NCBI RefSeq assembly: GCF_001983935.1
Contig: NZ_CP017641.1
Coordinates: 7,552,001 to 7,616,000, forward strand
Direction: 5' to 3'
Source: Fuerstiella marisgermanici
GTDB taxonomy: Bacteria; Planctomycetota; Planctomycetia; Planctomycetales; Planctomycetaceae
DNA: 64,000 nt
This document shows positions 21,238 through 36,762 of the stretch, piece after piece (the first letter of the stretch is position 1; each line of letters starts with the position of its first letter). The notes below the pieces were generated by a model. That model was not told the origin of the DNA, ran no database searches, and saw only the letters and a program-made list of their open reading frames with translations. The position numbers and the translations under genes are program-made.

Positions 21238-24200
21238 TTATTGTTCTGCCACAAGTTTCGCATCCGGGGCCTGGCGAATCTGAAACCTGGGGATGACGGC
21301 GGTCAACTTCGCGACAGCGTCGGAACACTTCGCTATACAGGAAACCTCCTTAATTGCCGCCTCGCCTACCGCAAATGACGCCAGAATTTTGAAGTCATCG
21401 GAACCGTCTGCGGCCGTGAAACAGAATATCTGCCCGCCCTGTCTGACCAGCCGAAGACGCCCTGAAGTTGTGGCTCCGTGGAACGTTTGATAGTCGACGG
21501 AGTGGTGTGAACCGTCTGGCGTGAGTCGGAGTAGTTGAGTTTTGTAGACGGGTTTATCGCCGTCGAGAGACACGCTGCATTCCACGCGTGATTGCTGCGG
21601 ATCGTCCAATACGGCTTCGAACACCAATCCAACTCCCCAGCCTTCCTTGTGAGGAACGATATTCAGGTTCGCGTAGTCGACAGTCAGTTCGCAATCGCTT
21701 TTAATCGGAGACTTGTACGCAACGCCAGGCCAGGACTGCCAGTCTTTGCTGTCATGCAGCATCACTTGCAAGCCGTCGGCACCAGTTTGCAGCCGATCTT
21801 TGGGGCCTCGGCCGGTGAGCTTTAGTTCTGCCAGTTGTTCAAGCGGTTGCGTCAGATCTGCATCGACCGTCAGTTTGCCTTCGGGCAGTAGACTGCGACT
21901 ACCGTCAACGGGCGCCGCCAGTTGTTGTTCGGCGACCGGCGGCAGAGTGTTCGGCCAGTCGCCACGGTACACCAGCCGGCGCACTCGGCCCGCCACGGGT
22001 GTGAACCGAAACAAACCAAACTGTCGTTCGTTGGCGGCGTCGGAAATTTCCACTTCCGCCACATCGACATCGTTTACACGGATAGTCAGCCGATCGCCCG
22101 CCAGCGAAAGCCGCACGCGATTCCAGTCTTTGTTTTTTAGCGGCACGCTATCGACTGACGAAGGGACGGCTTCCTGGTTGCCCGGCGGCAGGCCTGAAGT
22201 ATCGTATTGAGCGTTCGTCAGCCTGTGACGCTTCACTCCGTTTGGTGTCAGCAGGAATGCGGATGATCCGATGGCAGGATGCAGTTCGAAGGCATCGGGT
22301 TCGTACCAAGTTTCGAATTCGATCACTCCGTCTTCCAGCATTGGCCGTTGGTAACGCAACAGGCTTTCACGGACGACATGAGCCTTCTGTTTTGCGGCGG
22401 GTTGAGCTGTGAGTTCGTCCTTGATTCGTTTCCATGGAGCGTCTTCGGATTCCTTCGTGCTGAACCATTCTCCATACGTGTCGGCTCGCCACGCGGCCCA
22501 GCCGTCCATGTCGATCAGATCAATCTCGGTAGGAATTTCGGGCGTCCCGAGAATTCTCAGGTTGCCGATCAGCGTGTTGTCCAGAGCACGATTTGCCTGC
22601 AGCACCAGCCATGGATCGGGGGGATCCTGAAAGGTGTGTTCGTGAATCTGGACGCCGTTGGTGAAGGTCGTGACCTTGCGCCCATCCACTTTAATCCGAA
22701 AGTCGGCCAGCGTGTCCCAGGCGGGAAGATTGAGTGCCCCGCCGGCATTGGTTGAACTGTGCATTATTTTGCTGACCCGCGCCGCCGACTGATCATGTTG
22801 AGGTTCTGCCGAATGCATGCCCCAGCCAATTGCAACTTCGCGGTAGCCGTGAGTGGACCGAGTCGCCTGGATTTCGAATGTACCTCGCAATGGAGACTGG
22901 AAGTACAGCTGACTCCAGGTTTCCGACGGTACGTGCTGAAAAATTCCTTTGGCCTTCAGCCAGGTCGATGGGCGATTGCCCAGAGCGATGGTTTGAGACT
23001 TCAGGTACGGCACAGCCGTCCATTGCTTGATCGACGTTGGCGCTTGCCCTGGTTCCTCTTCAATTGACACCGTGCGAATGCTGCGTTGCAGGTCGCCATA
23101 AAGAGCGTGGACGTGTTTGTTGAATTCCGCATCGTATGACTTGCGATCACCCGACCGCTCGTTGTCTCGCAATCGCCGCAGGATGTCTGCGCCGGCCGAC
23201 CAATGCGCCGAATCCTGAGCCGCTCGCCACGCCACCACGAATTCTGCCGATCGGTCTCGGACGACGATATTTTTGGGAAGGTCGGCGGTCGATTTCCACA
23301 CGTCAGACAACGTTTGTTGAATGGCGGCAGCATCCTGTCGCTCCAGGGCGATCAGTGCTCGCATGGCCTGCTGATTGCGTTTTTGGACGTTGTTATCAAC
23401 GTTCAGTTCTTCGACAGCGTTGGAAATTTCGTCCAACCGACTGACGGTTCCGGCAACTCGAACCAGTTCCGCCGCTGGAGACAAGAACTGATTCCAGGGG
23501 TCCGCCCTTTCTTCGACCGTATCCTCATCGCCGTCCGATATCGATCGCGTGCCGGGGGAAGAAGGCGAATAGTACAGTCGCAGATTGTCATGGCTGTCGG
23601 ACGGCAACACCCAGTCGGCCAGAAAATCGAACGCATCTTCCGGCGACATTTCACGCGACGTCATCACAACTTCGCCAGCTAGTGGAGCGATCATCACATC
23701 GTCCAGAACGGTGGCCACGTCTTTTAGTAACGGAGGCGAGAGCGGTCGCGTCATCGCGGCCAGGTCACTGCGAACGTCGTCCGTTAGTTTTTCAGGCCAG
23801 TCGCCGCTAAGCAAGACGTTGCGAACTTTCGCTGCCTGGTCTCGGCGACGAAAGAACCCCAGCCGAGTGCTCGAACTATCGTCCATCGAGCGTTCAAAAA
23901 TGACTGAGCCGTTTAGCGTGATGGTGGCGACGTCGTCAGCAAGAGACACCGAAACGCTGTTCCAGTCGCCGGCCTTCAATGGCAGCGTTTCCGGACCTCG
24001 ACGACATTCTGATTCCACAATGGCGTTGTCCAGCGCGACGCCATTCACGACATCATCCCAGCCACGTGCCGCAATCCAATGTGTCTCCACACCGTCCGGT
24101 TCCAGCAGAAATGCGAGTCGACCCAACGACGGATGGGCGACCGAAAAGTTTGGCCGGTAGAAGAATTCGTAGTCCAGCGTCTCGCCATTTTGCAGCGGTC

Positions 24201-27200
24201 GATGATAGTAAATCCAGCTTTGCTTTCGCGTTTGATTGGCCTGCTCCGGCTGGGCGGTGCCGTGGAGCACGCCGTCGGATGTCTCCCAGTCGAATACTTC
24301 CGGTTCGTTACGCTGGTAGTACGCGATGGCGCTGTTTTCGCTTTCCGGCGTTTCTGCCATTAGTGCTCTGCGTGGCTGGCTTTCGCTAAAGGTGGACGTG
24401 TTCCAGCCATCCATATTGTCACCGCTCAATAAAGCGACCTGCCGAGGGATTTCGGGGTCGCCTTCGATAACAAGGTTCCTCATCGACGTCACTCGACCAC
24501 CGATCGTTTCCAGCACGAGCCACGGACTGGTCACTCCCACCGCACGTTCGTACACGAAGTGGTTGTTCAACAGATACTTCATCTGTCCGTCTTTGACGTC
24601 CACAGTCACGCGATTGAACGATGATGGGTCGCGTTTCAATCCGACGGGACGCTTGATGTTTTCGTGCCCTCCAGCCGCCATGATCACAGCATTGCTGCCC
24701 GGGTTCTGCGAACGCACAATGATGCCACCATAGCCCGCGTCGCATTCGGCCCAACTGTCGTAGAAGCAATCCACGGAAAACCGGAAGTTGCCCGTCAGCG
24801 GATAGCGAAACTGCAGCAGGTCGTGATCGTAACCGCCAAGGTGGACAATCTGGTTTTCGTACTGAGTCCACCAGCCGCGATCGTCGCCGGTTTGAGCGTC
24901 CGAGGAAGCAGCTAGCCAGTGTCGAAAAGACGGCTGCAGTGAACGATCGGCCACAACTTGTGGAGCATCCACTCGCCCGGCCCAATCCGCCCACAGGTGA
25001 TGGATCAGCTTGTGTTCTGATTTGCTCTGAAGTTGTCGGCGAAACTTTGCCATGTCATCGGCGAACACCTGAACAAAACCGGGCGAACGCAACGCGGCTT
25101 TGTACACCAGGTAGTCGCCAGCGGATTTCGGCGGACCTTCGGAATCGACTTTCATCCGTTCGTTGTAGCTTTGATTCAGCGAATCGATTAGCGCTCTTCC
25201 GGCCTCCTGATCTTCCTGAGCGATTGCGGTCAGAGTTAACAGTACATCTGCGTGGAGCAACTTCTGGTCCGCCAGGGCCTGCACATCTTTACGAAGCTCA
25301 CTCAGTTTTTCAGCCGCCTTGGCCGCTTCAACCAGTTCTGTGAAGTTGTCGCGGACATCATACGTCGCCTGCTGGTCGGCATCCGTCGCGGTAAGAAACC
25401 TGGCGGGTACGTCAAGGTGGTTTGCAGTTTCAAACAAAAACCGGAGCGACTGGCGACCTTCCGTTGGCAATGTCCATTCGCGCCAAAGTGTGTAGCGTTC
25501 TGCTGCTGGCAGGGTTCTTACGTGTCGGCAGGCAACCGCCAGTGCTGTGGTCATCGACGGAGGTGATCGGTTTTTCAAATTCGTATCGCAGACGCGCCCC
25601 ATTAAATCGAGACTCAACGCCGGCATTTTTAGTTGGGCAGCCTGCTCTGCCATCGTCGCTGAATCTCGTAGCTGCATCTGCATGCCGTAGTCACCACTGT
25701 AGCGACTGTAGTGCGCCTGCCGCGACAAAAGGACCGAATCGAAGTAGTCCTTCACCGCCTGTTGATCACCACTGGCAGCCAGTTGCTGATTCACTAAATC
25801 TGCCAGTCGATTCGAGACGTTGACCTGGGTGTTGCGACTTCCCTGAGCTTTCTGCAATTCCAGTTGCAGCGTGTGTTGCAGAATGGGGAATGCCGCAGCC
25901 TTGAGTGGTTCCTGTTGGAAGGCTCGCAGAGCTGCCATGCAGGCGATTGTGACGGCATCGGAATTGGCACCATTTGTCAATTCAGTCGACAGCGAATTCA
26001 AATGAGGAACCGCATCGTCCATTTGCTGTTGCTGAATCTTGATAAGAACCGTCAGGGCCGTCGCCGCGACCTTTGAGGTCTTTGTGTCTGATCGTTGATC
26101 CACGGCGCTGATTAATTCGTCAAGCCGCTTCGCCTGAGCCGCGTTTTTGACAAGAGGGTCGGCCAGACTATCGATTTTCCCGTCGCTTAATTTTGTCGCC
26201 GTTGTGTACAGGCGGATTTCTTTCGGACGGTTCTCCGGCAGGACCAATGCCTTCAGAACATCGTAAGTTTCGTCGGCCGGATAGGCGTCCCCCTGCCACA
26301 GTTTCACAATATCCCTAAACGCAGTGATGACTTCCGTTTCCATCGGATCGGCTTCTGAATCACTGGAAGACCGAATTACCTGACTACTTCTGGAGTTTGC
26401 AGAAATCGGCACGGGATCAGCGACCGGAAAGCCACCCTTGAGCGCTTCTCGCACCGCTTTGCGAGACAGCTCGGGCATGTCGTTTTTCGCCGCCGCCTTG
26501 GCCACAGCCACCACGGTACGAAACTGTGAGATCGTCAACGGCGGCACGATTCCGGCTGCCGGTGGCGCTGCGGCTGCTGGTGGTTGAGGACGACCTGCAC
26601 GCTGAATGGGGGAATCCCGCACTTGAGGCATTGATATGGCCAGTCGAAGTGCGACGTTCAACCCGGTTTGAAGCGATTTTGCGATTGGCCCCGGATGGGG
26701 CCGGAGCACGTAGCCGATGACGTAAGCCATCGGAGAGGGGGCGCGAGGTTCCCAAAGGCCCTGAGGGGTGACACCAAACATGTTGTGGAAATCGGCTCTG
26801 GCCCTTTCAGAGCTTTGTGTGCTGTTTGGTAGCTCTGCCCCAGGGCTCACGCCCAAGGCCACGCGCTTCGGCCCCATTCGGGGCCCACGGCGGCGCAACG
26901 AGTTTGAATCAGGATTTCGGGGCTGGGGGTCAGGCCAGATGAATCCGGTCTTCCGCCCGGGCACGCGCTTTTTATTTGTCCGTTTCGGCCGTTCGGTCGC
27001 CAGTTGCAGCAGTTCTGTCCAGCGAGTTTCGGCCTCTTCTTTTTGACCGGCGTTTAGCAGCGCTTGGCCCCATTCGAGCAGAATGGCGGACTGTTCGTTG
27101 TTTCCCATTTGGCGCCGAGCGGCCTGCAGCGCGGTTTCGGCCAGCACCATTCCGGTGTCGTCCAGCTTGTCCTTCCCGATGCATTCCCGAGCCACGACCC

Positions 27201-30200
27201 ACAGTGGGACACTAAGCGCCGCTTCGCGCCGCTGGCGCGAATTCGGGCGGCGGCCTTCAGGGATGGCTTCCAGCGGATGATCAGACGCGACAACCACCAG
27301 GCGTTGCACGGCATCCTGAGCGTCGTCGGCCTTGAGCTTCAATTTCCAGGCCGCCAAAGCGATCGCGATCGACAGGTCGTCAGCGTGTTGTTTTGAAAGT
27401 TCGTTCAATCGTTGTTCGATCGCTGCAGCAATCTTGTCGTCTTTAGAAAGCGAGACCAGCAGCTCGATATACGAACTCTTCATTGGTGACTCGCTAAAAT
27501 CTTGCGGGGTCGGAGTCGACAACATTAAATCAATACCGGGGGCTCCCGGCTTTAGCGTTTCCGGCGTGGATAGCAGTTCCGCAATCACTTCGCTTGCATT
27601 GGACGCATCGACAGAAGTCATCGCCTCGCTCATGCCTGTTCGCGCCGCTTTACCGTAGTAGTCTTCCGTGCCTCGACCATTAAACTGCGCCGCGGCCGCC
27701 ATACTTTCGGGATCATCCAGAATCTGCCGATACAGCCTCATCGCGGCCACCGGCATTTCCAGTTCCTGAAGTTTTTTCGCCGCCCACTGTCGATTTTCCA
27801 GTCGCTGATAGGACGCGTACGCCTGGTCGTAATTGTCGAAGCTGGATGCGGCAAGCTGCTTTAGCAACAGGTCGCGAGCTTCGTCCTTGCGGCCGGCTTT
27901 GGCGTAGCCGTTGATCAGCTTCGAAACCGGAGAATACTCCAACTGGTTCATTGAAGAATTTTGAGACGGCTGCGAGACGGCCTTTTCAAACAGGGCCAAT
28001 GCCATCGGTCGTGTTTCTTCGAAACGATCGAGTTCCTGACCAATGATCCAGCAGGTTTCTGCCGGCATCGATTTGCCTGCCGCTTCGTCTTCGACCAGCT
28101 TCTGAAGGCGATGACGAGCCGCATCTTTGCGATCTGAGTGCAATTCCAGCAGTGCCAGCATCGCTCGACCGGAATACCATTGCGGATTTTCGTCGGTCAG
28201 TTCACTGATCGACTTTTCGAGGTCCGCCAACTTGTCCGTCGATTTCAACCCCTTGAGCATCTCATGAAAAAAGACGTTCACTTCGCCGTTGCCAGAATAA
28301 GAACTGATTTGATTCAGCCCCATCCATGGCTGCGTTTGGATATCCAGCTTTGACGGCAAAACGGCTTTCTTCGCAAACTGGTAGACGCGATCGTTTTTCC
28401 AGACCGACGGGTTGCGCAGGTTCTGAATCATGTTTGAGCGATAGCTGGGGAAGGCTTCGAATGCTCGCTCCAGCAGGTCCACGCCCACGTCCATCGTGCT
28501 TTCATCGTTCAGCAAATTAGACGCGGTCCGCACGATGTAATACGGCTGCCTGACAGACTTCAGGTTGATGGAACTTAGTGCCTTAACAAGATCGGTCTTG
28601 CGTTTGGCCGACGTGAACGTGCGTTCTATCTGATACATGTCGTCTGTGACCCAGGACGGCTGAAGTTTCATCAGTTCCAGATACTGGTCGCAGGCTTCTG
28701 CGTGCTGGCCCGACTGTTCAAAATGCTTCGCCATTTGCAGACGCACCATCGCCGAATCCGGGCGCGCGGCGAGGGCTCGTTCCAGTGTTTTTTTAGCTTC
28801 ATTTTTTTGGCCGGTCACTCCGTAGAATTCAATCAATTGTTCCAGCAGGCGCACGGAACCGGGCGAGCGATCCAACTGCGTTTCCAATTGTTCGATGACG
28901 GACTTCAGAGCTCCGGAACGCTGCAGCAACTGCAGGGCCTGCGTTCGAAGAGTGCTGTCCTGCGTGCGATAACGCGTGGGGTTGCGGGACGATCGCGTGG
29001 TGATGGACATCGGCGACGTCGTGCGACGCAGCAACATGTGAGCGAGCTGGTTAGCCTGTTCCGTTTTGCCCTGCCCCTGATACAGCATCATTAACGATGC
29101 CAGCGACGACGTCTGGTTGGTGGCCGTCCGTTCGGCTCGCGCCAAAATCGCGTCTGCCATATCGCTGAGTCCCAGCCGCCGCATGCGGTCGACCAGTCCC
29201 AGTTGCGTTTCTGAATTCAGTCTGAGGCCGAACAGACGTTCCGCCGCGCTGCGGGCTCGTTCAACATCGCCCAACCGTTCAGACAACTGCAACGCGATCA
29301 GTTCTCGCCGTTGCAGCGTCTGCTGATCTCGTGGTGAAATCGAATCGACCAGCAACAGAGCGTCCTCAAAATCGCCTCGAGCTTCATACATGGCGGCCAT
29401 ATCAAACTTCAGCGTCAGGTCGTTTGATAACTGGTCTGTGACGGCCGCCATGAGTTCGACGGCTTCATCCTGTTCTTCGATCCACCACAATGCGGCCGCC
29501 AGATACAGCCGTCGATACACTGCGTCGTTCTCGGCCCCGTCTTCGGTGGTGGGGGCACTAGCGGACTTCAAATCGGCTCTCAGCATGTCCACCAGGTCGC
29601 TCCCCACATCATTTTGTTGAAGCAGTTCATGCGTCTGGCGCAGTAGCGTAATGGTGGCCTGATCGATGTAGGTATTGGCGGGCGGAAACTGGATGTTGAT
29701 CGTCGTCCGCTTTTCGCCCATGTACACAGAAATTCGTGTCGTCGACGGCGAATTCGTGGCGGGGCTGCGTCGGCGGGTTTGAGCAGCGGCCACCAGTCGC
29801 CGGTGTCTGGCTTCAGCGATCGACACGTCCAGCGCATCGTGCAGCACGGATAGCAACTGAGCGTTTTCTTCTTCGGTCCCCAGCCGCCCCATCCACATCT
29901 GCAGCGTGCTGACTGTCGCTGGCAAAACGTTGGCAGACGTGTTGGCCGTCGTTGGACGGCGCGAACGTCCGGACGATACCTGCACGGGAGCTTCGGAAAT
30001 CTGTTCTAACGCAGCGGCCTTCCAGCGTTGGAAATAGTCCGGGATTTCGTCAAACCGTTCTTCCTTCTGCAGGAGACCTATCGCCGCCGCAAATTCATTC
30101 GCCGATTTTGAACTCTGAAGATGATCGTTCAGCAGCTTTTCAGCTTCTTCGTCCTGGCCGGCTAAACGCAGTTCTTCAACCAGTGTCGTCAGAAATCCGG

Positions 30201-33200
30201 CGCCGCCGACGAATCCCTGCAACTGCACATATGAGCCGCCGACCTGGATGTATGCCTGCCCATTTGAGGCATAGACGATGTTGCCGCCGTGTATTGCCGA
30301 ATGGTCCGCCTGCTTGCTGTCCGAATTCAACACCGCATAACATTCTCGCACCAATTCCAGGTCGTCTTCAGGTAGCGGCTTCTGATTTGCGGCGGCCTGC
30401 ACCGACGTTGGTCGTCCCTCCTGGCTACCGTCCATGTGCCGGAGTCTTAATGAAGTCAGGAAGAAGGTGCGTTCTTCATCGCTGCCGTCCTTTGCGACGC
30501 GGCGAGCAATATCAAAGACGGCGGCGTAATTGTTTTTAAGTTGAGCTACGTACAACGCATCGTAGATGGCGTTGCGGGAGGCATCGTCTGCGGCAGCCTG
30601 TTCGCGAATTCGGTCCACCAGTGATTCGGTCGCCACCTCCGCTGTTTCGGTTGCATCCGCGCCTGTCTCTTCCGCGTCTGCCTCGTCCGCTACTTCTTCA
30701 AACTTCATTAACCAGCCGAAAGCCGCCATGCGAGCCACGCCGTACGCTTGAGGCGTCCAAACGGGCGGCGCTGATCCCGACGAGTAGTATCGATTGTCGG
30801 CGACCAAACCGGACGCTCGCTGTACCTGGCTGGACATTGACCGCATGGCCAGTGGCGACTGACGCTGTGGGACCGATGTCGCTCGACCACGCAGGTTGTC
30901 GGACTTCGCCTTTGCCTGAGCCTGCTTGAGTTTCGCTTCGGATGACCGGCTTAATGAATCGTAGGGGATTTTTAGTGCGAGGATGCGTTCGAATCGGTTG
31001 ATGGCTTCTTCTGTTTTCTCCAACGAAGCCCACGCGATGGCTTCGCGATACAGTAACTCCCAATCGTCACGATTCTGAGCCAGCAGCGGTTCGACGACAC
31101 CGATGACGGATTCGTAGTTGCCCTGAGTCAGCAGCGAATCCAGACTTCGGATCTGCCTTACCGGATCTTCTTCGCGTTGAGTCAGTTTGACGAATATTTC
31201 TCGCGCGGCTTCCGCCTGCCCGTTCGCCATCAGCATGCCTGCCAGCGGATATTCCGTTTCATGTCCCGGCGCGATGGCGACTAATTGTTTTTGATAGCCT
31301 ATCGCGGCTTCCAAATCCGCTCCGTCCTGGCACAGCTTTGCCAGTTGACTTAGCAAATTAGTGTCGCGCGTGTCTTCGCTGAGCAGGCTTTCCAGTTCCT
31401 GTCGAGCAGCACTAAGGTCACCCGTTGAGTGCCACGCCTGAGCCAGGCAGATGGTCATTTCGCGACGCTGGTCTTCTTCTCGACGGTCGCGTTCGAAACG
31501 TTCTACCAGCTGATCGAACCGATTAACCTGCTGATAGAGCGGTGCGAGCTTCGTGGTCAGGCTGACTTTGTCTTCCACTTCGTCTGTCTTTTCGAACGCA
31601 CGCCAATAGACTTCGATCGCTTCGTCGGTTCTGAGTTGTTCTGCCAGTGCGGCCGCAAGAGCCATGATCAAGTGCGGTTCGTTCGGGTTAATACGGACCG
31701 CTTTGCGCAGAGCTTCCAGGCCATCTTCCGCACGACCCAGCCGAAAGCACATTTGAGCGTAGAACTCATAATTATCCGTATTGCCTGGCGCGGAAAGAAT
31801 CAGGTCCTGAGCCGCCTGCAGCGCTTCGTCCGCGCGGCCTAACTGAGCTTCCAGTCGTGACACGTTCATCAGATGGTCGCCTCGGGAACGACGATCGATC
31901 TCGGCCAGCTTTCGGTTCGTTTCCGCCGCGCGACCGTAGTCGCCCGATGTCTCTGCGATGCGCGCCGCCAGTGTCAGCACCGGAATTGCCTTTGCGTCCA
32001 ACTTCAGCGCTTCGTCGATCGCTTCGGTGGCACCCGGCCAACGACGACTGGCTTCCATGTACCTCGCTAGCAGATACCAATCCTGAACAGTCGCGTCGGT
32101 CTTGCCGCGAATTTCGGTGGCAAGGCGATCCGCTTCGGCGTCCAGTTGCTGACTGGTTTGCAGGACGTCGACCTTCTGTTGAATGACGGCGTCTCGTTCG
32201 TCGTCGTTGGTGGCCAATGCATCCGCCGCTGCCACATATTTCAAGGCTTCGTCATACTTGCCCGCTCGCGAATGATATTCGGCCGAACGAATTTGAAGAC
32301 TGAAGTCTTTGGGATCCAGTGTCACCGCTTCGGCGATTTCAATCACCGCCTTCTCCGGAAAACCGAAACTGTTGTAGACCTCAGCAAGGCGAGTGATATT
32401 CAACGCGGTCCGGCGATCTCCTTCCGCGATCCCCTTCCAAACATTCAGAGCTTCTCCGGGCCGTTTCTGAATATGCAGGAACTCACCAAGGTACTCGCGG
32501 TACTGCGGATCGGCCGGGGCCAACTTCACGGCCTTCGCGTATAACTCTTCCGCTTCCGGAAGCATCTTGTTTTGACGATAAAGATCGGCGACTTGCGAGA
32601 CCGTTAAGGCATCGTCGGGGCGAGTCTTAAGAATCCCATTCCAGATTCGGATCGCTTCCTGCTTGCTTTCCTGTTCCGGACGTTCCTTGTCCCGCAGCAC
32701 CAGCTTGCCCCAGTCTCGCAGGAAGTCCGTGTTTGACGGAGCCGACTTCACCAGCAATTCGTATTGTTCGATGGCTTCTGACAATCGTTGATCGTTGACC
32801 AGCTGATCGATAAACGCCTTGCGCAGGTCGGTCCTCGACGGAGCCAGCTTCAGGGCCTTTTCCATCCATTGCGTCGCTTCCGGCACTCGCGCAGACGACG
32901 CAAGGAAGCGGGCCAGGCGAGTCATGCCTTCCACGTCTTCCGGATGGCCTTCCAGCCACTGCTGATAGTATTTCACCAGGCTGTCCTGATCGCCGGAACG
33001 CAGATAGACGTTTTCAATGCGCCGCCTTACATCACGGTACAACCAGCCGTCTGGGTTTAAGTCCGTGAGTACACTTTCAAGGCTGGCAATGCCTTCGTCT
33101 CGCTGACCGGATTTGATCATCAATTCAGCAGCCGCGACTTCGAACACGACTCGCCGATAATCATCGCGCACTAACTCTGCCAGACGCTGATAGCGCGGCA

Positions 33201-33840
33201 ACGCCAGGGCCGGCTGACCTTCTTCGGCCAGAGTTACGGCAATCTGTTCCAGAACCCGCGGGTCATCCGGGAACAAAGCTTCCAGCCGCTGCCAGACCTT
33301 CAGCGCTTCTTCGGTTCGTTGAGCTCGTTGGTGAACTCGGCCAAGCTGCTGAAAGATCTCCAACATATCAGCTCGCGGCGGTTTACGTGCGATGCCTCGT
33401 TCGAACGACGCCACGGCTTCTTCCGATTCGCCGATTCGAAGCTGCGATTGAGCTCGGTAGTAGCTGGCCATTGCATCGTCCGGCCGCAGCGTTTCTGCCT
33501 TTTCGAAGGCTTCCGCAGCCGCTGCATCGTTGCCTCGCTGAGCTTCAAACAAGCCAACCAGCATCCACGCCGCGCCGTCTGACTTCGCCGTTTCAGCACG
33601 CTCTTTCAGCGACGCCAGAAAATCATCCAGCGTGCCGAATTCGACGTGGTGTCCGTAAATACGATCCAGCGCCGTGCCACGCCGTGGATTGCGTTCCAGA
33701 ATACTGAGAAACCGCTCGGCCGTTTTGACTTGCCGAAGTTCCTCGTCGGACAATTCACTGTCCTGATCTGCCGTCTGAGGACTGGCCGCGTGAATGGCGT
33801 GAGGTGAAAACGCAAACGCGAGAATAAGAATCCATCGCAT
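21238..33840 (-). CDS. Giant exported TPR protein with DUF1581/DUF1583-like C-terminal modules (4200 aa)
   Basis: A single open frame of 4200 codons. The ATG at 33840 gives a signal peptide (MRWILILAFAFSPHAIHAA) and has GGAG eight nucleotides upstream; the longer frame to 33918 is unlikely. Residues about 30-960 are consecutive TPR-type helix pairs (for example NDAAAAEAFEKAETLRPDDA). More alpha-solenoid repeats fill about 1100-2280 and 2430-2900. A proline/arginine-rich, non-helical island at about 2284-2424 breaks the solenoid. The C-terminus has two copies of a beta-rich lectin-like module (about 2950-3350 and 3610-3970), each with a PEIP...MDGW junction and resembling planctomycete DUF1581/DUF1583, then a third related domain at about 4000-4200. 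It is probably an envelope scaffold binding proteins through TPRs and glycans through the C-terminal modules; function is inferred. The coiled-coil gene follows it, and the MoxR operon is divergent. Confidence 0.93.
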   Translation of the reverse strand: MRWILILAFAFSPHAIHAASPQTADQDSELSDEELRQVKTAERFLSILERNPRRGTALDRIYGHHVEFGTLDDFLASLKERAETAKSDGAAWMLVGLFEAQRGNDAAAAEAFEKAETLRPDDAMASYYRAQSQLRIGESEEAVASFERGIARKPPRADMLEIFQQLGRVHQRAQRTEEALKVWQRLEALFPDDPRVLEQIAVTLAEEGQPALALPRYQRLAELVRDDYRRVVFEVAAAELMIKSGQRDEGIASLESVLTDLNPDGWLYRDVRRRIENVYLRSGDQDSLVKYYQQWLEGHPEDVEGMTRLARFLASSARVPEATQWMEKALKLAPSRTDLRKAFIDQLVNDQRLSEAIEQYELLVKSAPSNTDFLRDWGKLVLRDKERPEQESKQEAIRIWNGILKTRPDDALTVSQVADLYRQNKMLPEAEELYAKAVKLAPADPQYREYLGEFLHIQKRPGEALNVWKGIAEGDRRTALNITRLAEVYNSFGFPEKAVIEIAEAVTLDPKDFSLQIRSAEYHSRAGKYDEALKYVAAADALATNDDERDAVIQQKVDVLQTSQQLDAEADRLATEIRGKTDATVQDWYLLARYMEASRRWPGATEAIDEALKLDAKAIPVLTLAARIAETSGDYGRAAETNRKLAEIDRRSRGDHLMNVSRLEAQLGRADEALQAAQDLILSAPGNTDNYEFYAQMCFRLGRAEDGLEALRKAVRINPNEPHLIMALAAALAEQLRTDEAIEVYWRAFEKTDEVEDKVSLTTKLAPLYQQVNRFDQLVERFERDRREEDQRREMTICLAQAWHSTGDLSAARQELESLLSEDTRDTNLLSQLAKLCQDGADLEAAIGYQKQLVAIAPGHETEYPLAGMLMANGQAEAAREIFVKLTQREEDPVRQIRSLDSLLTQGNYESVIGVVEPLLAQNRDDWELLYREAIAWASLEKTEEAINRFERILALKIPYDSLSRSSEAKLKQAQAKAKSDNLRGRATSVPQRQSPLAMRSMSSQVQRASGLVADNRYYSSGSAPPVWTPQAYGVARMAAFGWLMKFEEVADEADAEETGADATETAEVATESLVDRIREQAAADDASRNAIYDALYVAQLKNNYAAVFDIARRVAKDGSDEERTFFLTSLRLRHMDGSQEGRPTSVQAAANQKPLPEDDLELVRECYAVLNSDSKQADHSAIHGGNIVYASNGQAYIQVGGSYVQLQGFVGGAGFLTTLVEELRLAGQDEEAEKLLNDHLQSSKSANEFAAAIGLLQKEERFDEIPDYFQRWKAAALEQISEAPVQVSSGRSRRPTTANTSANVLPATVSTLQMWMGRLGTEEENAQLLSVLHDALDVSIAEARHRRLVAAAQTRRRSPATNSPSTTRISVYMGEKRTTINIQFPPANTYIDQATITLLRQTHELLQQNDVGSDLVDMLRADLKSASAPTTEDGAENDAVYRRLYLAAALWWIEEQDEAVELMAAVTDQLSNDLTLKFDMAAMYEARGDFEDALLLVDSISPRDQQTLQRRELIALQLSERLGDVERARSAAERLFGLRLNSETQLGLVDRMRRLGLSDMADAILARAERTATNQTSSLASLMMLYQGQGKTEQANQLAHMLLRRTTSPMSITTRSSRNPTRYRTQDSTLRTQALQLLQRSGALKSVIEQLETQLDRSPGSVRLLEQLIEFYGVTGQKNEAKKTLERALAARPDSAMVRLQMAKHFEQSGQHAEACDQYLELMKLQPSWVTDDMYQIERTFTSAKRKTDLVKALSSINLKSVRQPYYIVRTASNLLNDESTMDVGVDLLERAFEAFPSYRSNMIQNLRNPSVWKNDRVYQFAKKAVLPSKLDIQTQPWMGLNQISSYSGNGEVNVFFHEMLKGLKSTDKLADLEKSISELTDENPQWYSGRAMLALLELHSDRKDAARHRLQKLVEDEAAGKSMPAETCWIIGQELDRFEETRPMALALFEKAVSQPSQNSSMNQLEYSPVSKLINGYAKAGRKDEARDLLLKQLAASSFDNYDQAYASYQRLENRQWAAKKLQELEMPVAAMRLYRQILDDPESMAAAAQFNGRGTEDYYGKAARTGMSEAMTSVDASNASEVIAELLSTPETLKPGAPGIDLMLSTPTPQDFSESPMKSSYIELLVSLSKDDKIAAAIEQRLNELSKQHADDLSIAIALAAWKLKLKADDAQDAVQRLVVVASDHPLEAIPEGRRPNSRQRREAALSVPLWVVARECIGKDKLDDTGMVLAETALQAARRQMGNNEQSAILLEWGQALLNAGQKEEAETRWTELLQLATERPKRTNKKRVPGRKTGFIWPDPQPRNPDSNSLRRRGPRMGPKRVALGVSPGAELPNSTQSSERARADFHNMFGVTPQGLWEPRAPSPMAYVIGYVLRPHPGPIAKSLQTGLNVALRLAISMPQVRDSPIQRAGRPQPPAAAAPPAAGIVPPLTISQFRTVVAVAKAAAKNDMPELSRKAVREALKGGFPVADPVPISANSRSSQVIRSSSDSEADPMETEVITAFRDIVKLWQGDAYPADETYDVLKALVLPENRPKEIRLYTTATKLSDGKIDSLADPLVKNAAQAKRLDELISAVDQRSDTKTSKVAATALTVLIKIQQQQMDDAVPHLNSLSTELTNGANSDAVTIACMAALRAFQQEPLKAAAFPILQHTLQLELQKAQGSRNTQVNVSNRLADLVNQQLAASGDQQAVKDYFDSVLLSRQAHYSRYSGDYGMQMQLRDSATMAEQAAQLKMPALSLDLMGRVCDTNLKNRSPPSMTTALAVACRHVRTLPAAERYTLWREWTLPTEGRQSLRFLFETANHLDVPARFLTATDADQQATYDVRDNFTELVEAAKAAEKLSELRKDVQALADQKLLHADVLLTLTAIAQEDQEAGRALIDSLNQSYNERMKVDSEGPPKSAGDYLVYKAALRSPGFVQVFADDMAKFRRQLQSKSEHKLIHHLWADWAGRVDAPQVVADRSLQPSFRHWLAASSDAQTGDDRGWWTQYENQIVHLGGYDHDLLQFRYPLTGNFRFSVDCFYDSWAECDAGYGGIIVRSQNPGSNAVIMAAGGHENIKRPVGLKRDPSSFNRVTVDVKDGQMKYLLNNHFVYERAVGVTSPWLVLETIGGRVTSMRNLVIEGDPEIPRQVALLSGDNMDGWNTSTFSESQPRRALMAETPESENSAIAYYQRNEPEVFDWETSDGVLHGTAQPEQANQTRKQSWIYYHRPLQNGETLDYEFFYRPNFSVAHPSLGRLAFLLEPDGVETHWIAARGWDDVVNGVALDNAIVESECRRGPETLPLKAGDWNSVSVSLADDVATITLNGSVIFERSMDDSSSTRLGFFRRRDQAAKVRNVLLSGDWPEKLTDDVRSDLAAMTRPLSPPLLKDVATVLDDVMIAPLAGEVVMTSREMSPEDAFDFLADWVLPSDSHDNLRLYYSPSSPGTRSISDGDEDTVEERADPWNQFLSPAAELVRVAGTVSRLDEISNAVEELNVDNNVQKRNQQAMRALIALERQDAAAIQQTLSDVWKSTADLPKNIVVRDRSAEFVVAWRAAQDSAHWSAGADILRRLRDNERSGDRKSYDAEFNKHVHALYGDLQRSIRTVSIEEEPGQAPTSIKQWTAVPYLKSQTIALGNRPSTWLKAKGIFQHVPSETWSQLYFQSPLRGTFEIQATRSTHGYREVAIGWGMHSAEPQHDQSAARVSKIMHSSTNAGGALNLPAWDTLADFRIKVDGRKVTTFTNGVQIHEHTFQDPPDPWLVLQANRALDNTLIGNLRILGTPEIPTEIDLIDMDGWAAWRADTYGEWFSTKESEDAPWKRIKDELTAQPAAKQKAHVVRESLLRYQRPMLEDGVIEFETWYEPDAFELHPAIGSSAFLLTPNGVKRHRLTNAQYDTSGLPPGNQEAVPSSVDSVPLKNKDWNRVRLSLAGDRLTIRVNDVDVAEVEISDAANERQFGLFRFTPVAGRVRRLVYRGDWPNTLPPVAEQQLAAPVDGSRSLLPEGKLTVDADLTQPLEQLAELKLTGRGPKDRLQTGADGLQVMLHDSKDWQSWPGVAYKSPIKSDCELTVDYANLNIVPHKEGWGVGLVFEAVLDDPQQSRVECSVSLDGDKPVYKTQLLRLTPDGSHHSVDYQTFHGATTSGRLRLVRQGGQIFCFTAADGSDDFKILASFAVGEAAIKEVSCIAKCSDAVAKLTAVIPRFQIRQAPDAKLVAEQ
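26687..26885. repeat. Hairpin-bounded, in-frame insertion-like segment inside the giant gene
   Basis: The segment is bounded by two near-identical 16-nt hairpins, GGCCCCGGATGGGGCC at 26687-26702 and GGCCCCATTCGGGGCC at 26870-26885, each a perfect 6-bp stem with a 4-nt loop. A third hairpin, CCGATG/CATCGG, lies at 26714-26733. The segment keeps the reading frame but encodes a Pro/Arg/Gly-rich, non-TPR stretch (RMGPKRVALGVSPGAELPNS). It resembles a dispersed palindromic repeat absorbed into the coding sequence. Copy number elsewhere cannot be seen from this window. Confidence 0.45.
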
Positions 33841-34344
33841 GACTGTTTCTCCAGAGAGGCCGGTTTTCGGAGCAGACAAACGTTGACACGTCGTCTGTGA
33901 CGTCGAAACCACGCACACAAAATGTCAGGATGCTGTTCCTGTCGGATTACTGCGGCGTCGGGTCGAAACTAACAAAACCTAAGGGGGATTGCTAGACAAT
34001 GCGAGGGGCGGTTCCAATAATCGTTTCCGACATCAACACGCGATGATATTTCGCAAACGTTTGAGACATTGACGCGGGATGATAATCCTCACCTGCGACA
34101 GGACTTTCAAAAAGCCAATGAACTCAACGATGGCGTTAGCCCTCAGCAGTAGCAACCACAACTCAATAGACTCTTCGGTGACGGGCAGTTCGTTTATATT
34201 CACAAGCGGGGTTGGCGAAACCGTTTTGATAAGCTGTTAACATCCAGTGTACAGCCGTGCAGATTAGCGCCTGGCACATCAATTACAACAAAACTGTGGC
34301 ACACCACCCCTGTTACAACTTTCAATAACACGGAGCCTGACCGA
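33841..34344. other. Divergent promoter region between the giant TPR gene and the MoxR operon
   Basis: A 504-bp intergenic region with no credible ORF. It must contain promoters for the giant gene (minus) and for moxR (plus). The plus side has GGAG nine nucleotides before the MoxR ATG. AT-rich candidates such as TTGATA near 34225 and TATATT near 34195 are present, but none pairs with a good partner hexamer at 16-18 nt. Confidence 0.55.
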
Positions 34345-35355
34345 ATGAATATCGATGATCAGTTGAAGCAACAACTGGATGACTTCCGCCGTGACTTTAA
34401 GAAACTGAAGTCCGAAATTTCTAAAGTCATCGTCGGCCAGCAGGAAATCCTGGACGACATGCTGATCTCACTGATCGCGGGGGGCCACGTGTTGTTGGAA
34501 GGTGTGCCAGGACTCGGCAAGACACTTACCGTTCGCACGCTCGCCGATGCCCTGCACCTGGATTTTCATCGCATTCAGTTTACGCCCGACCTGATGCCGG
34601 CCGACCTGATTGGAACTCAGGTCATCGCCGAAGCTGCTGACGGTCGCAAGGTTTTCGAATTTCAAAAGGGTCCGCTGTTTTCAAACGTGCTGCTGGCCGA
34701 CGAAATTAACCGAGCGACTCCGAAAACGCAGTCGGCTCTGCTGGAAGCCATGCAGGAACATTCCGTGACTGTGGCCGGCGTGACTCACAAACTGGCTGAG
34801 CCGTTCTTTGTGATGGCGACTCAGAACCCACTGGAAATGGAAGGCACATATCCATTGCCGGAAGCGCAGTTGGACCGCTTTTTCTGCAAGTTGATGGTGA
34901 AGTACCCTTCGGTCGACGATCTCGAAGCGATCCTGGACCGCACCACAGAATCAACCAAAACTCAGGCCGAAGCCGTGATGACGGGCGAGCGCATTCTGGA
35001 AATGGGAGCTCTGTCGCGTCTTATCCCCATCGCCGCCGACGTGCGCCGCTACGGCATAGCGATTGTTGTGGCGACTCATCCGGAACACGAACTGGCGGCT
35101 GAGCCTGCGAAGAAGTATGTGCGGTTCGGAGCCAGCCCGCGCGGACTGCAGTCACTGATTCTGGGAGCCAAAATTCGAGCGATTCTCGACAACCGTTACC
35201 ACGTGGCTCGCGAAGATCTACGAATCATGGCCACACCCGTACTGCGACATCGCATGATCCTGAACTTCGAAGGTCAGGCCGAAGGAGTCAGTGCCGACGA
35301 CGTCATCGAAAAGATCATCGCCAACGTGCCGGACAACGCTTTAGTTGCGGCGTAA
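34345..35355 (+). CDS. MoxR family AAA+ ATPase
   Basis: A 336-residue AAA_3-type ATPase of the MoxR group. These act as chaperones for folding, metal insertion or activation of VWA-domain partner proteins. The Walker A motif GVPGLGKT is at about residues 53-60 and Walker B LLADEINR at about 116-123. The MATQNPLEMEGTYPLPEAQL block near 153 and the C-terminal lid (HRMILNFEGQAEG) are typical. There is no signal peptide. It heads the plus-strand operon that continues with DUF58 and two VWA proteins, the classical partners. A GxxExxY cassette of about 0.5 kb separates it from DUF58. GGAG nine nucleotides upstream supports the ATG at 34345. Confidence 0.97.
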   Translation: MNIDDQLKQQLDDFRRDFKKLKSEISKVIVGQQEILDDMLISLIAGGHVLLEGVPGLGKTLTVRTLADALHLDFHRIQFTPDLMPADLIGTQVIAEAADGRKVFEFQKGPLFSNVLLADEINRATPKTQSALLEAMQEHSVTVAGVTHKLAEPFFVMATQNPLEMEGTYPLPEAQLDRFFCKLMVKYPSVDDLEAILDRTTESTKTQAEAVMTGERILEMGALSRLIPIAADVRRYGIAIVVATHPEHELAAEPAKKYVRFGASPRGLQSLILGAKIRAILDNRYHVAREDLRIMATPVLRHRMILNFEGQAEGVSADDVIEKIIANVPDNALVAA

Positions 35356-35366
35356 CGAAGGTGAGT

Positions 35367-35405
35367 GGAACCACGGAAAACACAGACAACACGGAAGAAT
35401 CGCAG
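35367..35405 (+). repeat. Left inverted repeat of the GxxExxY cassette
   Basis: This 39-nt arm begins GGAACCACGG and ends GAATCGCAG. It starts 12 nt after the MoxR stop codon. It contains a degenerate 9-nt tandem pattern of the form AACACGGAA, seen as CCACGGAAA, ACACAGACA and ACACGGAAG in succession. It is the reverse complement of the right arm except at three positions. Confidence 0.8.
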
Positions 35406-35446
35406 GAAGGACGTGGGGCCGGTTTCGTGAAATCGTGGGGGATGTG

Positions 35447-35824
35447 ATGAGTCGTCTGATGTACGAAGAGGAGTCCTACGTTCTTCGCGGTGCGGCGTTC
35501 GAGGTTTACAAGGAAAAAGGGTGTGGGTTTCTGGAAAAGGTCTACCAGGAATGTATCGAGCTCGAATTGGCGATGATCCAGGTTCCCTTCGTTGCCAAAC
35601 GCCCATTGCTTCTCAACTACAAAGGCAAAACACTGAGTGCAAAGTACGAGCCAGACCTGATCTGTTTCGACAAGATCATCGTTGAGCTGAAAGCGGCCAG
35701 CAAGATCTGCGATGAACATCGAGCTCAATTGCACAACTACCTAAAAGCGACCAATCTGCGTCTCGGGTTTCTCATGAATTTCGGTCATCATCCTGGAGTC
35801 CAAATCGAACGCATTGTGCGATAA
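35447..35824 (+). CDS. GxxExxY protein, PD-(D/E)xK nuclease-like
   Basis: A 125-residue protein of the GxxExxY family, named for the motif seen here as G27-F-L-E30-K-V-Y33. A PD-(D/E)xK-like catalytic arrangement is present: D70 in YEPDL and E80-x-K82 in IIVELKA. The family is therefore likely to have an endonuclease-like fold, though activity is not established. The ATG at 35447 was chosen because the longer frame to 35345 reads through the left inverted repeat and the MoxR stop region. The gene sits alone between two inverted repeats, interrupting an otherwise tight MoxR-DUF58-VWA operon in the same orientation, which suggests acquisition as a cassette. Confidence 0.88.
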   Translation: MSRLMYEEESYVLRGAAFEVYKEKGCGFLEKVYQECIELELAMIQVPFVAKRPLLLNYKGKTLSAKYEPDLICFDKIIVELKAASKICDEHRAQLHNYLKATNLRLGFLMNFGHHPGVQIERIVR

Positions 35825-35841
35825 CGCACCTGTCTGTCCGT

Positions 35842-35880
35842 CTGCGATTCTTCCGTGTTTTCTGTGTCTTCCGTGGTCCC
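35842..35880 (-). repeat. Right inverted repeat of the GxxExxY cassette
   Basis: This is the mirror of the 35367-35405 arm, with 36 of 39 positions matching. It starts 17 nt after the GxxExxY stop codon and ends 6 nt before the DUF58 start codon, so it forms the immediate 5' leader of DUF58. If the whole unit is transcribed, the two arms could pair as a long stem. Confidence 0.8.
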
Positions 35881-35886
35881 GTCTCT

Positions 35887-36762
35887 ATGCTCTTCCCGTC
35901 GGATTTTTTAACGCGACTTGAGTACCTTTCGATTATGTCGAAACGGGTGTTCCGCGGATCATTGCTGGCTCAGCGGCGTACCATGCAGATGGGGTCCGGC
36001 ATTGAATTTTCTGAGCATCGTGAATACAGCCACGGCGACGATCTGAGGTATCTCGACTGGAACATTTACGCTCGTCACGGCGATCTGCTGTTGAAGCGGT
36101 TTCAGGAAGAACAGGACCTGCACGTTTATTTGATGCTGGACTGTTCGCGGAGCATGGCGTTTGGGCAACCGGCGAAGTTCGATCTGGCTCGCCAATTGAC
36201 CGCAGCATTGGCCTACATCGCTTTGGCCGATCTGGATCGTATTGCCGTCGTCGCGTACGCCGACGGCATCTTTACGGAATTCCCGATCACGCGCGGCAAG
36301 GCGCGGATTATGGCGCTGATGAAGTTTCTGGAAGACCTGCCCACATCCGGGCAGGACACCAATCTGGCTCACGCTGTCCAGGGGCTGTTGCATCGAGGTT
36401 CACGATCCGGCCTGGCAGTCGTCATCAGCGATCTATTCGATGAGCACGGCTTTCAGGGAGGCCTGGATCAGCTGCGCCACCGTCGCTTTGATGCTCACGT
36501 TCTTCAACTTCACGACCCGAAAGAGGCCGACCCGAACCTGCTGGGCGACGTGGAATTCGTCGACATGGAAACGGAGTCCGAACGGATGGTCACGGTGACG
36601 GAAAAGAATGTTCGTACGTACAAGAAACTGTTCCAGCAGCATCAACAGTCGGTGCGAGACTACTGCACCAACTACGGACTGGGCTGTACTCAGTCGCCGT
36701 CGATTGTTCCGTTCGACGATCTCGTTATGAGCATGATGCGCACGTCTGCAGTGGGGCGTTAA
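35887..36762 (+). CDS. DUF58 domain protein (VWA-like)
   Basis: A 291-residue DUF58 protein, a VWA-like cytoplasmic partner of MoxR ATPases. The hallmark block YSHGDDLRYLDWNIYARHGD is near residues 47-66. The MIDAS-type metal site DCSRS is at about residues 84-88. The family often begins with a FLxRLExL-like helix, and here the ATG at 35887 gives MLFPSDFLTRLEYLSIMSKR, so the protein appears full length despite the adjacent cassette. No Shine-Dalgarno sequence is visible because the leader is the right inverted repeat. The next gene starts 3 nt after the stop. Confidence 0.95.
   Translation: MLFPSDFLTRLEYLSIMSKRVFRGSLLAQRRTMQMGSGIEFSEHREYSHGDDLRYLDWNIYARHGDLLLKRFQEEQDLHVYLMLDCSRSMAFGQPAKFDLARQLTAALAYIALADLDRIAVVAYADGIFTEFPITRGKARIMALMKFLEDLPTSGQDTNLAHAVQGLLHRGSRSGLAVVISDLFDEHGFQGGLDQLRHRRFDAHVLQLHDPKEADPNLLGDVEFVDMETESERMVTVTEKNVRTYKKLFQQHQQSVRDYCTNYGLGCTQSPSIVPFDDLVMSMMRTSAVGR

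Follow-up and report, generated by a model that had tools for sequence, protein, structure and literature searches.

The described systems closest to the locus reported here are the REPIN/RAYT elements, whose RAYTs are portrayed as domesticated and vertically inherited in the accessible part of PMC8049555, and the intervening sequences (IVSs) of rRNA. The Coxiella IVS, in the accessible part of PMC4990558, carries an S23 ORF, ends in a 28-bp terminal stem and is cleaved by RNase III in vitro. We analysed a 64-kb stretch of DNA (the window) in which one small gene of the GxxExxY family stands between two inverted arms made of short iterated motifs (iterons). No description of GxxExxY cassettes or of such iteron arrays was found in the openly licensed literature, most subscription papers lying outside the search. 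The openly licensed texts that mention 'GxxExxY' are, as far as they are accessible, not about repeats, and these arrays are not described in the accessible text of papers on prokaryotic repeats, PMC3733652 among them. We think it probable that the arms and the gene together form a minimal mobile or selfish element whose iteron triplets are both its ends and the cognate recognition sites of its protein.

The original prediction was that 39-nt inverted arms, matching at 36 of 39 positions, tightly enclose a single small gene, and our inverted-pair scan reproduced this structure. Specifically, scan and sequence place the left arm at 35367..35405 on the + strand, with ACC as its outer end and the iterons CACGGAA (35372-35378), CACAGAC (35381-35387) and CACGGAA (35390-35396) at a spacing of 9 nt. 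The right arm, at 35842..35880 on the − strand, is its inverse and has three iterons, TTCCGTG (35851-35857), TTCTGTG (35860-35866) and TTCCGTG (35869-35875), again spaced by 9 nt. The arms are 92% complementary and are separated by 436 nt, and the sole recognised gene between them is the GxxExxY/PDDEXK_3 gene at 35447..35824 (+), which is defined by its ORF, profile matches, residues and structural model, and which codes for 125 aa from the ATG at 35447, a start that is uncertain since the ATG at 35462 is also possible. The cassette stands in a row of co-directed genes. On its left, 11 nt before the arm, ends the host gene moxR, coding for a MoxR AAA ATPase (34345..35355, +), and on its right, 6 nt after the arm, begins the host gene for a DUF58 protein (35887..36762, +), both recognised from ORF and profile. 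The scan of the 64-kb window gave only two inverted pairs scoring at least 16 within 700 nt, and the cassette pair is the sole one with periodic arms, which argues that the arms are not a product of chance. Elsewhere in the window, the − strand has one ORF of 4226 aa (21238-33918) that looks TPR-like by eye. The source genome, a single contig of 8.92 Mb, contains four more GxxExxY copies, one of them with a stop and one split.

The gene product had been predicted to be a PD-(D/E)xK-like protein with a GxxExxY motif and an intact D70, E80, K82 site; the alignment contains both features, and the family profiles and the predicted fold back the assignment. The profile matches are to TIGR04256 GxxExxY (E 4.8e-37, 126.9 bits against a cut-off of 35) and to PF13366 PDDEXK_3 (E 2.3e-37, 128.4 bits against a cut-off of 22), and residues D70, E80, K82, Q94 and Y98 are all present. 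Across a 76-member alignment G25, G27, E30, Y33, D70, K82 and F112 are invariant, and E80, Q94 and Y98 almost so. When the AlphaFold2 model of the protein (pLDDT 95.3) was used as query in a fold search, the four matches at E ≤ 0.001 were all chains of SSO0001, which we take to be Cas4 (structure 4ic1: chain B, E 2e-4; chain A, E 3.4e-4, TMq 0.62), with lambda exonuclease next (3sm4, E 1e-3). The modelled fold, together with the D, E-x-K and Q-xxx-Y residues, has the features of what we take to be the QxxxY branch of PD-(D/E)xK proteins (Cas4/lambda exo/RecB), so named for its Q-xxx-Y motif, and the protein is thus a putative small nuclease that resembles Cas4 and lambda exonuclease. One Cas4 model is also weakly matched by 28 of the 76 members (best 3.4e-5), and a profile search of PDB sequences found nothing at E ≤ 1. 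Assignment to a defence system was considered and dropped, as the matches were weak and mostly to Cas4.

TIGR04256 is present in 139 of the 294 sampled genomes of the phylum, often in multiple copies, and many genomes contain several that are dissimilar. A scan of GTDB contigs revealed GxxExxY genes in many further phyla, with at least 536 confirmed candidates, the best 80 of which were used; 16 phyla are represented among 78 named genes. All collected loci together provided 224 distinct GxxExxY genes, and an arm score was defined as the best inverted match between the 300 nt upstream and the 300 nt downstream of each, three genes having too little flank. Of the 221 testable genes, 171 have inverted arms (score ≥14); control windows taken elsewhere in these loci have them in 16 of 2355 cases, which bears out the earlier remark on CACGGAA-like arrays beside GxxExxY genes in other genomes. 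Strong arms are absent in the other 50 genes, for example an archaeal one (L085, score 8). An inversion-blind search, requiring C[AG][CT]N[AG]AN triplets with 8-10-nt spacing on both sides, succeeded at 83/224 genes versus 2/2863 windows, and the left and right consensus iterons were identical in 65 of these 83, versus 9% when pairings were shuffled. Arms also match their own partner (median 17) far better than a mispaired one (median 8), and 130/219 beat every other arm sampled. One apparent match in a control window (L089) turned out to be a second GxxExxY gene; the two genes at this locus lie 1.7 kb apart and each has its own, different arms. With one member as query, GxxExxY was found in 0 of 50,697 phage records and 8 of 72,556 plasmid records, and an alignment-based search located it in one viral contig. 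The cassettes are thus not frequent in phage or plasmid records, where they do not appear as regular cargo. The gene on the sole viral contig (L143) also has inverted arms (score 19).

A typical arm is a triplet of the 7-nt iteron CRCNRAN at a spacing of 8-10 nt. At least two iterons in each arm were recovered for 144 of the 177 genes with an arm score of at least 13, and 84 of these 144 have three plus three; the spacings counted were 9 (265), 8 (162), 10 (95), 11 (12) and 7 nt (7), and the outer end of the arm tends to TT[A/C]ACC. The iterons, which include CACAGAG, CACGGAG, CGCAGAG, CACGAAG, CGCCAAG, CACAGAT, CACGAAT and CACAGAA, are largely uniform inside a locus and different between loci. 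For example, among 62 G-class loci with three plus three iterons, within-locus pairs agree at position 2 in 92.5% of cases versus 50.5% expected, all six iterons being equal there in 50 loci, and iterons agree less closely at position 4 (72.9% versus 42.5% expected). We compared the iterons with a FastTree tree of 210 proteins, in which branch support was not used and from which 14 of the 224 were left out for stops or length. Over the 167 labelled genes, a few of C class being excluded, the tree requires 12 changes of the last iteron base, versus 49 on average and never fewer than 43 in 200 shuffles. Positions 4 and 5 also track the protein tree; position 2 has no significant link to it (22 versus 25.4 changes, 14 of 200 shuffles being as low), and a flank-GC label tracks it less (40 versus 55 changes). 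These sequence comparisons indicate that the arms and the GxxExxY protein are inherited together. Host phylum changes 39 times among the 78 named genes from 16 phyla (shuffled mean 54, minimum 48); this remaining signal indicates that transfer is not unlimited, and the host distribution shows some host signal with much mixing.

Arms of this kind also occur without a gene. The source genome has several gene-less hairpins (L008, L010, L020, L025 and, weaker, L011), and the arms of L020 are perfect over 26 nt. In counts that include cassette arms, a strict G-class triplet pattern gave 1647 matches in 71 of the 294 genomes, with none for the reversed-pattern control, and a T-class pattern gave 1041 matches in 61 genomes, its control again giving none; in some genomes the arrays number from tens to hundreds. 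The original prediction would have been undermined by arms occurring genome-wide with no link to GxxExxY genes. The arrays are indeed widespread in some genomes, yet a GxxExxY gene is present in 62/71 genomes with G-class arrays versus 77/223 others (Fisher p 1.3e-15, relatedness ignored), and in 51/61 genomes with T-class arrays versus 88/233 others. No GxxExxY gene was detected in 9 of the 71. Three genomes in which it was undetected, G290, G291 (completeness 100) and G039, have 68, 36 and 23 G-class array matches, respectively; there the gene may have been lost, or the arrays may be relics. The classes of cassettes and arrays within a genome match moderately, with just part of each genome's cassettes classed: G arrays occur in 35/50 genomes with a G-class cassette versus 5/15 without (p 0.016), and T arrays in 17/22 genomes with a T-class cassette versus 17/43 without (p 0.005; both Fisher, relatedness ignored). 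Likewise, G arrays outnumber T arrays in 23 and are fewer in 13 of the 42 G-only genomes, and T arrays outnumber G arrays in 11 and are fewer in 2 of the 14 T-only genomes.

What the hairpins enclose differs from what bounds them. In genome G044, with 474 G-class and 181 T-class array matches and two gene matches, the six hairpins read (within L403-L410) by eye share their arms and mostly an outer small TTCGCCTTCGGCGAA-like palindrome. Their loops are unrelated in 14 of 15 pairs, the remaining pair (L406 and L409, in opposite orientation) sharing its loop, and loops are likewise unrelated in 6/6 pairs of G178 and 6/6 pairs of G001. Mostly unrelated loops within a genome are not what simple copy-paste of whole hairpins predicts. 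In G004 all three hairpin copies (L420, L421, L422) share a loop. There the hairpin, of CACAGAG type, lies inside a repeat of about 200 nt that has ends near GAGCYTGTTTAAAAAGT and resembles an IS-derived MITE; in one copy the iteron array is expanded. Since this apparent MITE has terminal repeats of its own, the copy number of the hairpin in G004 is no evidence for the nuclease. At two loci (L386, L395) arms are kept around fragments of a GxxExxY gene. Finally, 24 of 96 periodic hairpins with a loop of at least 150 nt contain neither GxxExxY nor S23; in ten of these that were opened, some span long host-like genes and some lack a sizeable ORF. Possible further cargo was noticed in L097 (from ~10359, loop 670 nt, 221-aa ORF), L106 (from ~295, loop 756 nt, ~158-aa ORF) and L095 (96-aa ORF).

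If the cassette is a mobile unit, relatives might be expected to have an empty MoxR-DUF58 junction, and this is what most of them have. A DUF58 match at E ≤1e-40 is present in 29 of the 81 genomes of the family, the source genome included; six of the 28 others have no assessable moxR neighbour, and among the remaining 22 the junction is empty in 17, occupied in four and contains Ns in one (L167). The arms and gene behave as a unit, as had been claimed. Sixteen empty junctions span 8-180 nt (30 nt in the closest relative, with a DUF58 identity of 78%) and contain neither an iteron chain nor an inverted pair; in the seventeenth (L172) moxR and DUF58 overlap. The four occupied junctions differ from one another: G332 (L152) has a GxxExxY cassette unlike that of the window, its arms being CACCAAG/CACAAAG; G318 (L154) by eye has hairpins of three iteron classes, the third enclosing the other two; G266 (L155) has a gene-less hairpin; and G344 (L164) has what by eye is an S23-like gene with AAGGTGG arms (arm score 18). 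GxxExxY also adjoins DUF58 in L152 and, elsewhere in G266, in L055. A Hymenobacter contig (L112; GxxExxY match 10001-10327, DUF58 10457-11797) has the two genes side by side as well, in the order of the window, possibly as a preferred site or through an old transfer. Note that MoxR-DUF58 is one among many settings of these cassettes.

Site occupancy is also patchy within the genus g103, where three cassettes are present in one, two and three of six genomes, respectively, and where genomes lacking a cassette have other intergenic sequence, 7-nt-type arrays or other palindromes at the same site. In G247 (L352, g103 site 3) a cassette is tandemly duplicated, with both arms but little of the gene left in the first copy. 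Such deletion derivatives, together with the patchy presence, point to mobility. Upstream of what by eye is argH, g103 species have GxxExxY cassettes, 7-nt-iteron hairpins or GC-rich palindromes (L345-L361), and palindromic inserts may have a hot spot at this junction. No new insertion was caught between near-identical strains. The related gene pairs examined for exact cassette boundaries were mostly syntenic, and 400-kb blocks of G122 and G217, which belong to the same genus, proved too rearranged to show insertion polymorphism, with alignments longer than 700 nt totalling about 36 kb. At the ends of 126 cassettes, shared 6-mers, which would mark a target-site duplication, are at chance level (6 versus 4.05 expected), and inverted 8-mers extend the arms outward in 7 cases versus 0.3 expected.

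The same data bear on the main rival explanation, homing, in which gene-less hairpins are empty targets, the nuclease cuts those that carry its iterons and cassette-templated repair inserts the gene. Homing would fit the lack of a target duplication and the fact that cassettes and most hairpins have the arms in common and not the intervening sequence. It requires, however, that an empty site be a hairpin, and neither the 16 empty MoxR-DUF58 junctions, as described above, nor three orthologous g103 sites without the gene (inspected by eye for a hairpin with matching iterons) have such arms, while the gene fragments in L386 and L395 indicate the opposite direction, from cassette to hairpin. The empty sites without arms lead us to disfavour homing, which we regard as unlikely.

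A second alternative places the function in RNA: the arm stem would insulate or excise the insert from a transcript, as in the 23S rRNA IVSs, so that it is tolerated in operons. The co-directed gene row around the window cassette is congruent with this, as are the Coxiella stem and its cleavage by RNase III (PMC4990558, accessible part). So is S23, the protein family of the rRNA IVSs, as S23 genes show an architecture parallel to that of the GxxExxY cassettes. S23/IVP four-helix-bundle genes (PF05635) are present in 77/149 genomes, and inverted arms flank 24 of 27 testable loci, 3 of the 30 being truncated, versus 0/108 control windows, with a median own-arm match of 18 versus 8 when mispaired. 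S23 arms (L273-L302) consist mostly of iterons of about 7 nt, such as AGTGGTT, TAGTTGT and GGGGTTA, that agree inside a locus and vary from one locus to the next; exceptions are L300, with CACGGAG-like iterons, and L278, L285 and L294. However, an RNA stem needs neither uniform iterons nor a link between protein and iteron, many hairpins have no gene, and no Rfam match was found in nine loci. We consider an RNA-level element quite improbable.

A third alternative is that the protein is a domesticated host nuclease accompanied by regulatory or terminator-like palindromes, any mobility being old and irrelevant. This would be congruent with the description of RAYTs as domesticated and vertically inherited (PMC8049555, accessible part) and with the dN/dS of 0.05-0.11 observed in seven GxxExxY gene pairs (one gene entering two of them), most of them syntenic or partly so, values that place these genes under strong purifying selection as judged from their sequences. 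By analogy, this selection resembles that on RAYTs, and some benefit to the host would be compatible with it. Domestication is harder to reconcile with the patchy presence at orthologous g103 sites, the independent occupation of the MoxR-DUF58 junction and the several dissimilar copies in many genomes, and we rate it as very doubtful. The original prediction had also named purely vertical divergence of a shared cassette at one locus as evidence against mobility. Several other cassettes are indeed syntenic between species and persist in this way; the window cassette, with its mostly empty junction in relatives, does not follow that pattern. Since some cassettes persist syntenically under strong purifying selection, to call them 'purely selfish and transient' would be an oversimplification. 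Neutral mutation alone, with the gene as a bystander, is already disfavoured and highly improbable: quasi-palindrome correction and slippage are both able to make arms and iterons uniform, but the same iteron formula recurs across many phyla, is tied to GxxExxY as opposed to the mostly 7-nt type beside S23 genes, and is nearly missing from control windows.

We therefore return to the minimal mobile or selfish element, which draws on the architecture, gene association, arm and iteron uniformity, co-inheritance, gain and loss at sites, deletion derivatives, purifying selection and predicted fold, all read from sequence. The position of the iterons at the ends, their co-inheritance with the protein and their uniformity point to recognition by the encoded protein, and we infer that the GxxExxY protein would bind or cut iterons, with movement or copying as the result. 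The nuclease would act in cis on the iteron ends of the cassette that encodes it, and in trans on hairpins that have no gene but carry iterons of that kind; some of these hairpins may be cassettes that underwent an internal deletion. Movement perhaps proceeds by hairpin or single-strand end processing with host repair, as suggested by the type of nuclease, by the inverted sequence that extends the arms outward and by the lack of a target duplication. More tentatively, and with rather less confidence than in the element itself, we suggest an unnamed mobile class of one-gene cassettes and gene-less palindromes with inverted iteron ends read by the encoded protein. It would comprise a Cas4-like branch, using CRCNRAN iterons spaced 8-10 nt, and an S23 branch with mostly 7-nt iterons, of which the rRNA IVSs would be a special case, and protein-iteron co-evolution would amount to a DNA-recognition code. 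If this is right, the TIGR04256 family (139/294 genomes; 16 named phyla) gains a function, the reading of its own iterons; a body of palindromic repeats found in environmental genomes is accounted for; rRNA intervening sequences are linked to a broader class; small Cas4-like nucleases become available whose DNA sites differ and can be predicted; and REPIN/RAYT gains a nuclease-based counterpart.

We place the cassette outside the known mobile-element families because a RAYT enzyme, a target duplication and an rRNA context were each looked for and none was found. Direct repeats at the ends of the 126 cassettes are at chance level, which separates them from insertion sequences and DDE transposons. 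MITEs and IS200-IS605 elements are similar in having short, hairpin-bearing internal-deletion derivatives, again with no target duplication seen here; the cassette differs in having iterated arms and no transposase of those families. With Cas4, lambda exonuclease and RecB-type nucleases the GxxExxY protein shares a predicted fold and the D, E-x-K and Q-xxx-Y residues, but it is about 120 aa long, has the GxxExxY motif and stands alone between arms. The 23S rRNA IVS is comparable as an insert of ~430 nt with one small ORF and long inverted ends (the 28-bp stem in the accessible text on Coxiella); in contrast, the cassette protein belongs to a family other than S23, the insertion lies between moxR and DUF58 and not in 23S rRNA, and Rfam gave nothing in nine loci. 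As regards REPIN/RAYT, the RAYT is a tyrosine (HUH) transposase, a gene for which is absent from the cassette, where the sole recognised gene is PDDEXK_3, a PD-(D/E)xK enzyme by family and predicted fold. Moreover, REPs are tagged GTAG or CGTC (PMC3733652, accessible part) whereas the cassette ends consist of 7-nt iterons in inverted triplets, and GxxExxY genes, known here from sequence, are often multicopy. The likeness, one of organisation and not of membership, is nevertheless extensive when set beside the accessible text of PMC8049555: in both, few genes under purifying selection are flanked by palindromes, and non-autonomous palindromes are dispersed and commoner in genomes that carry the gene, here 62/71 versus 77/223.
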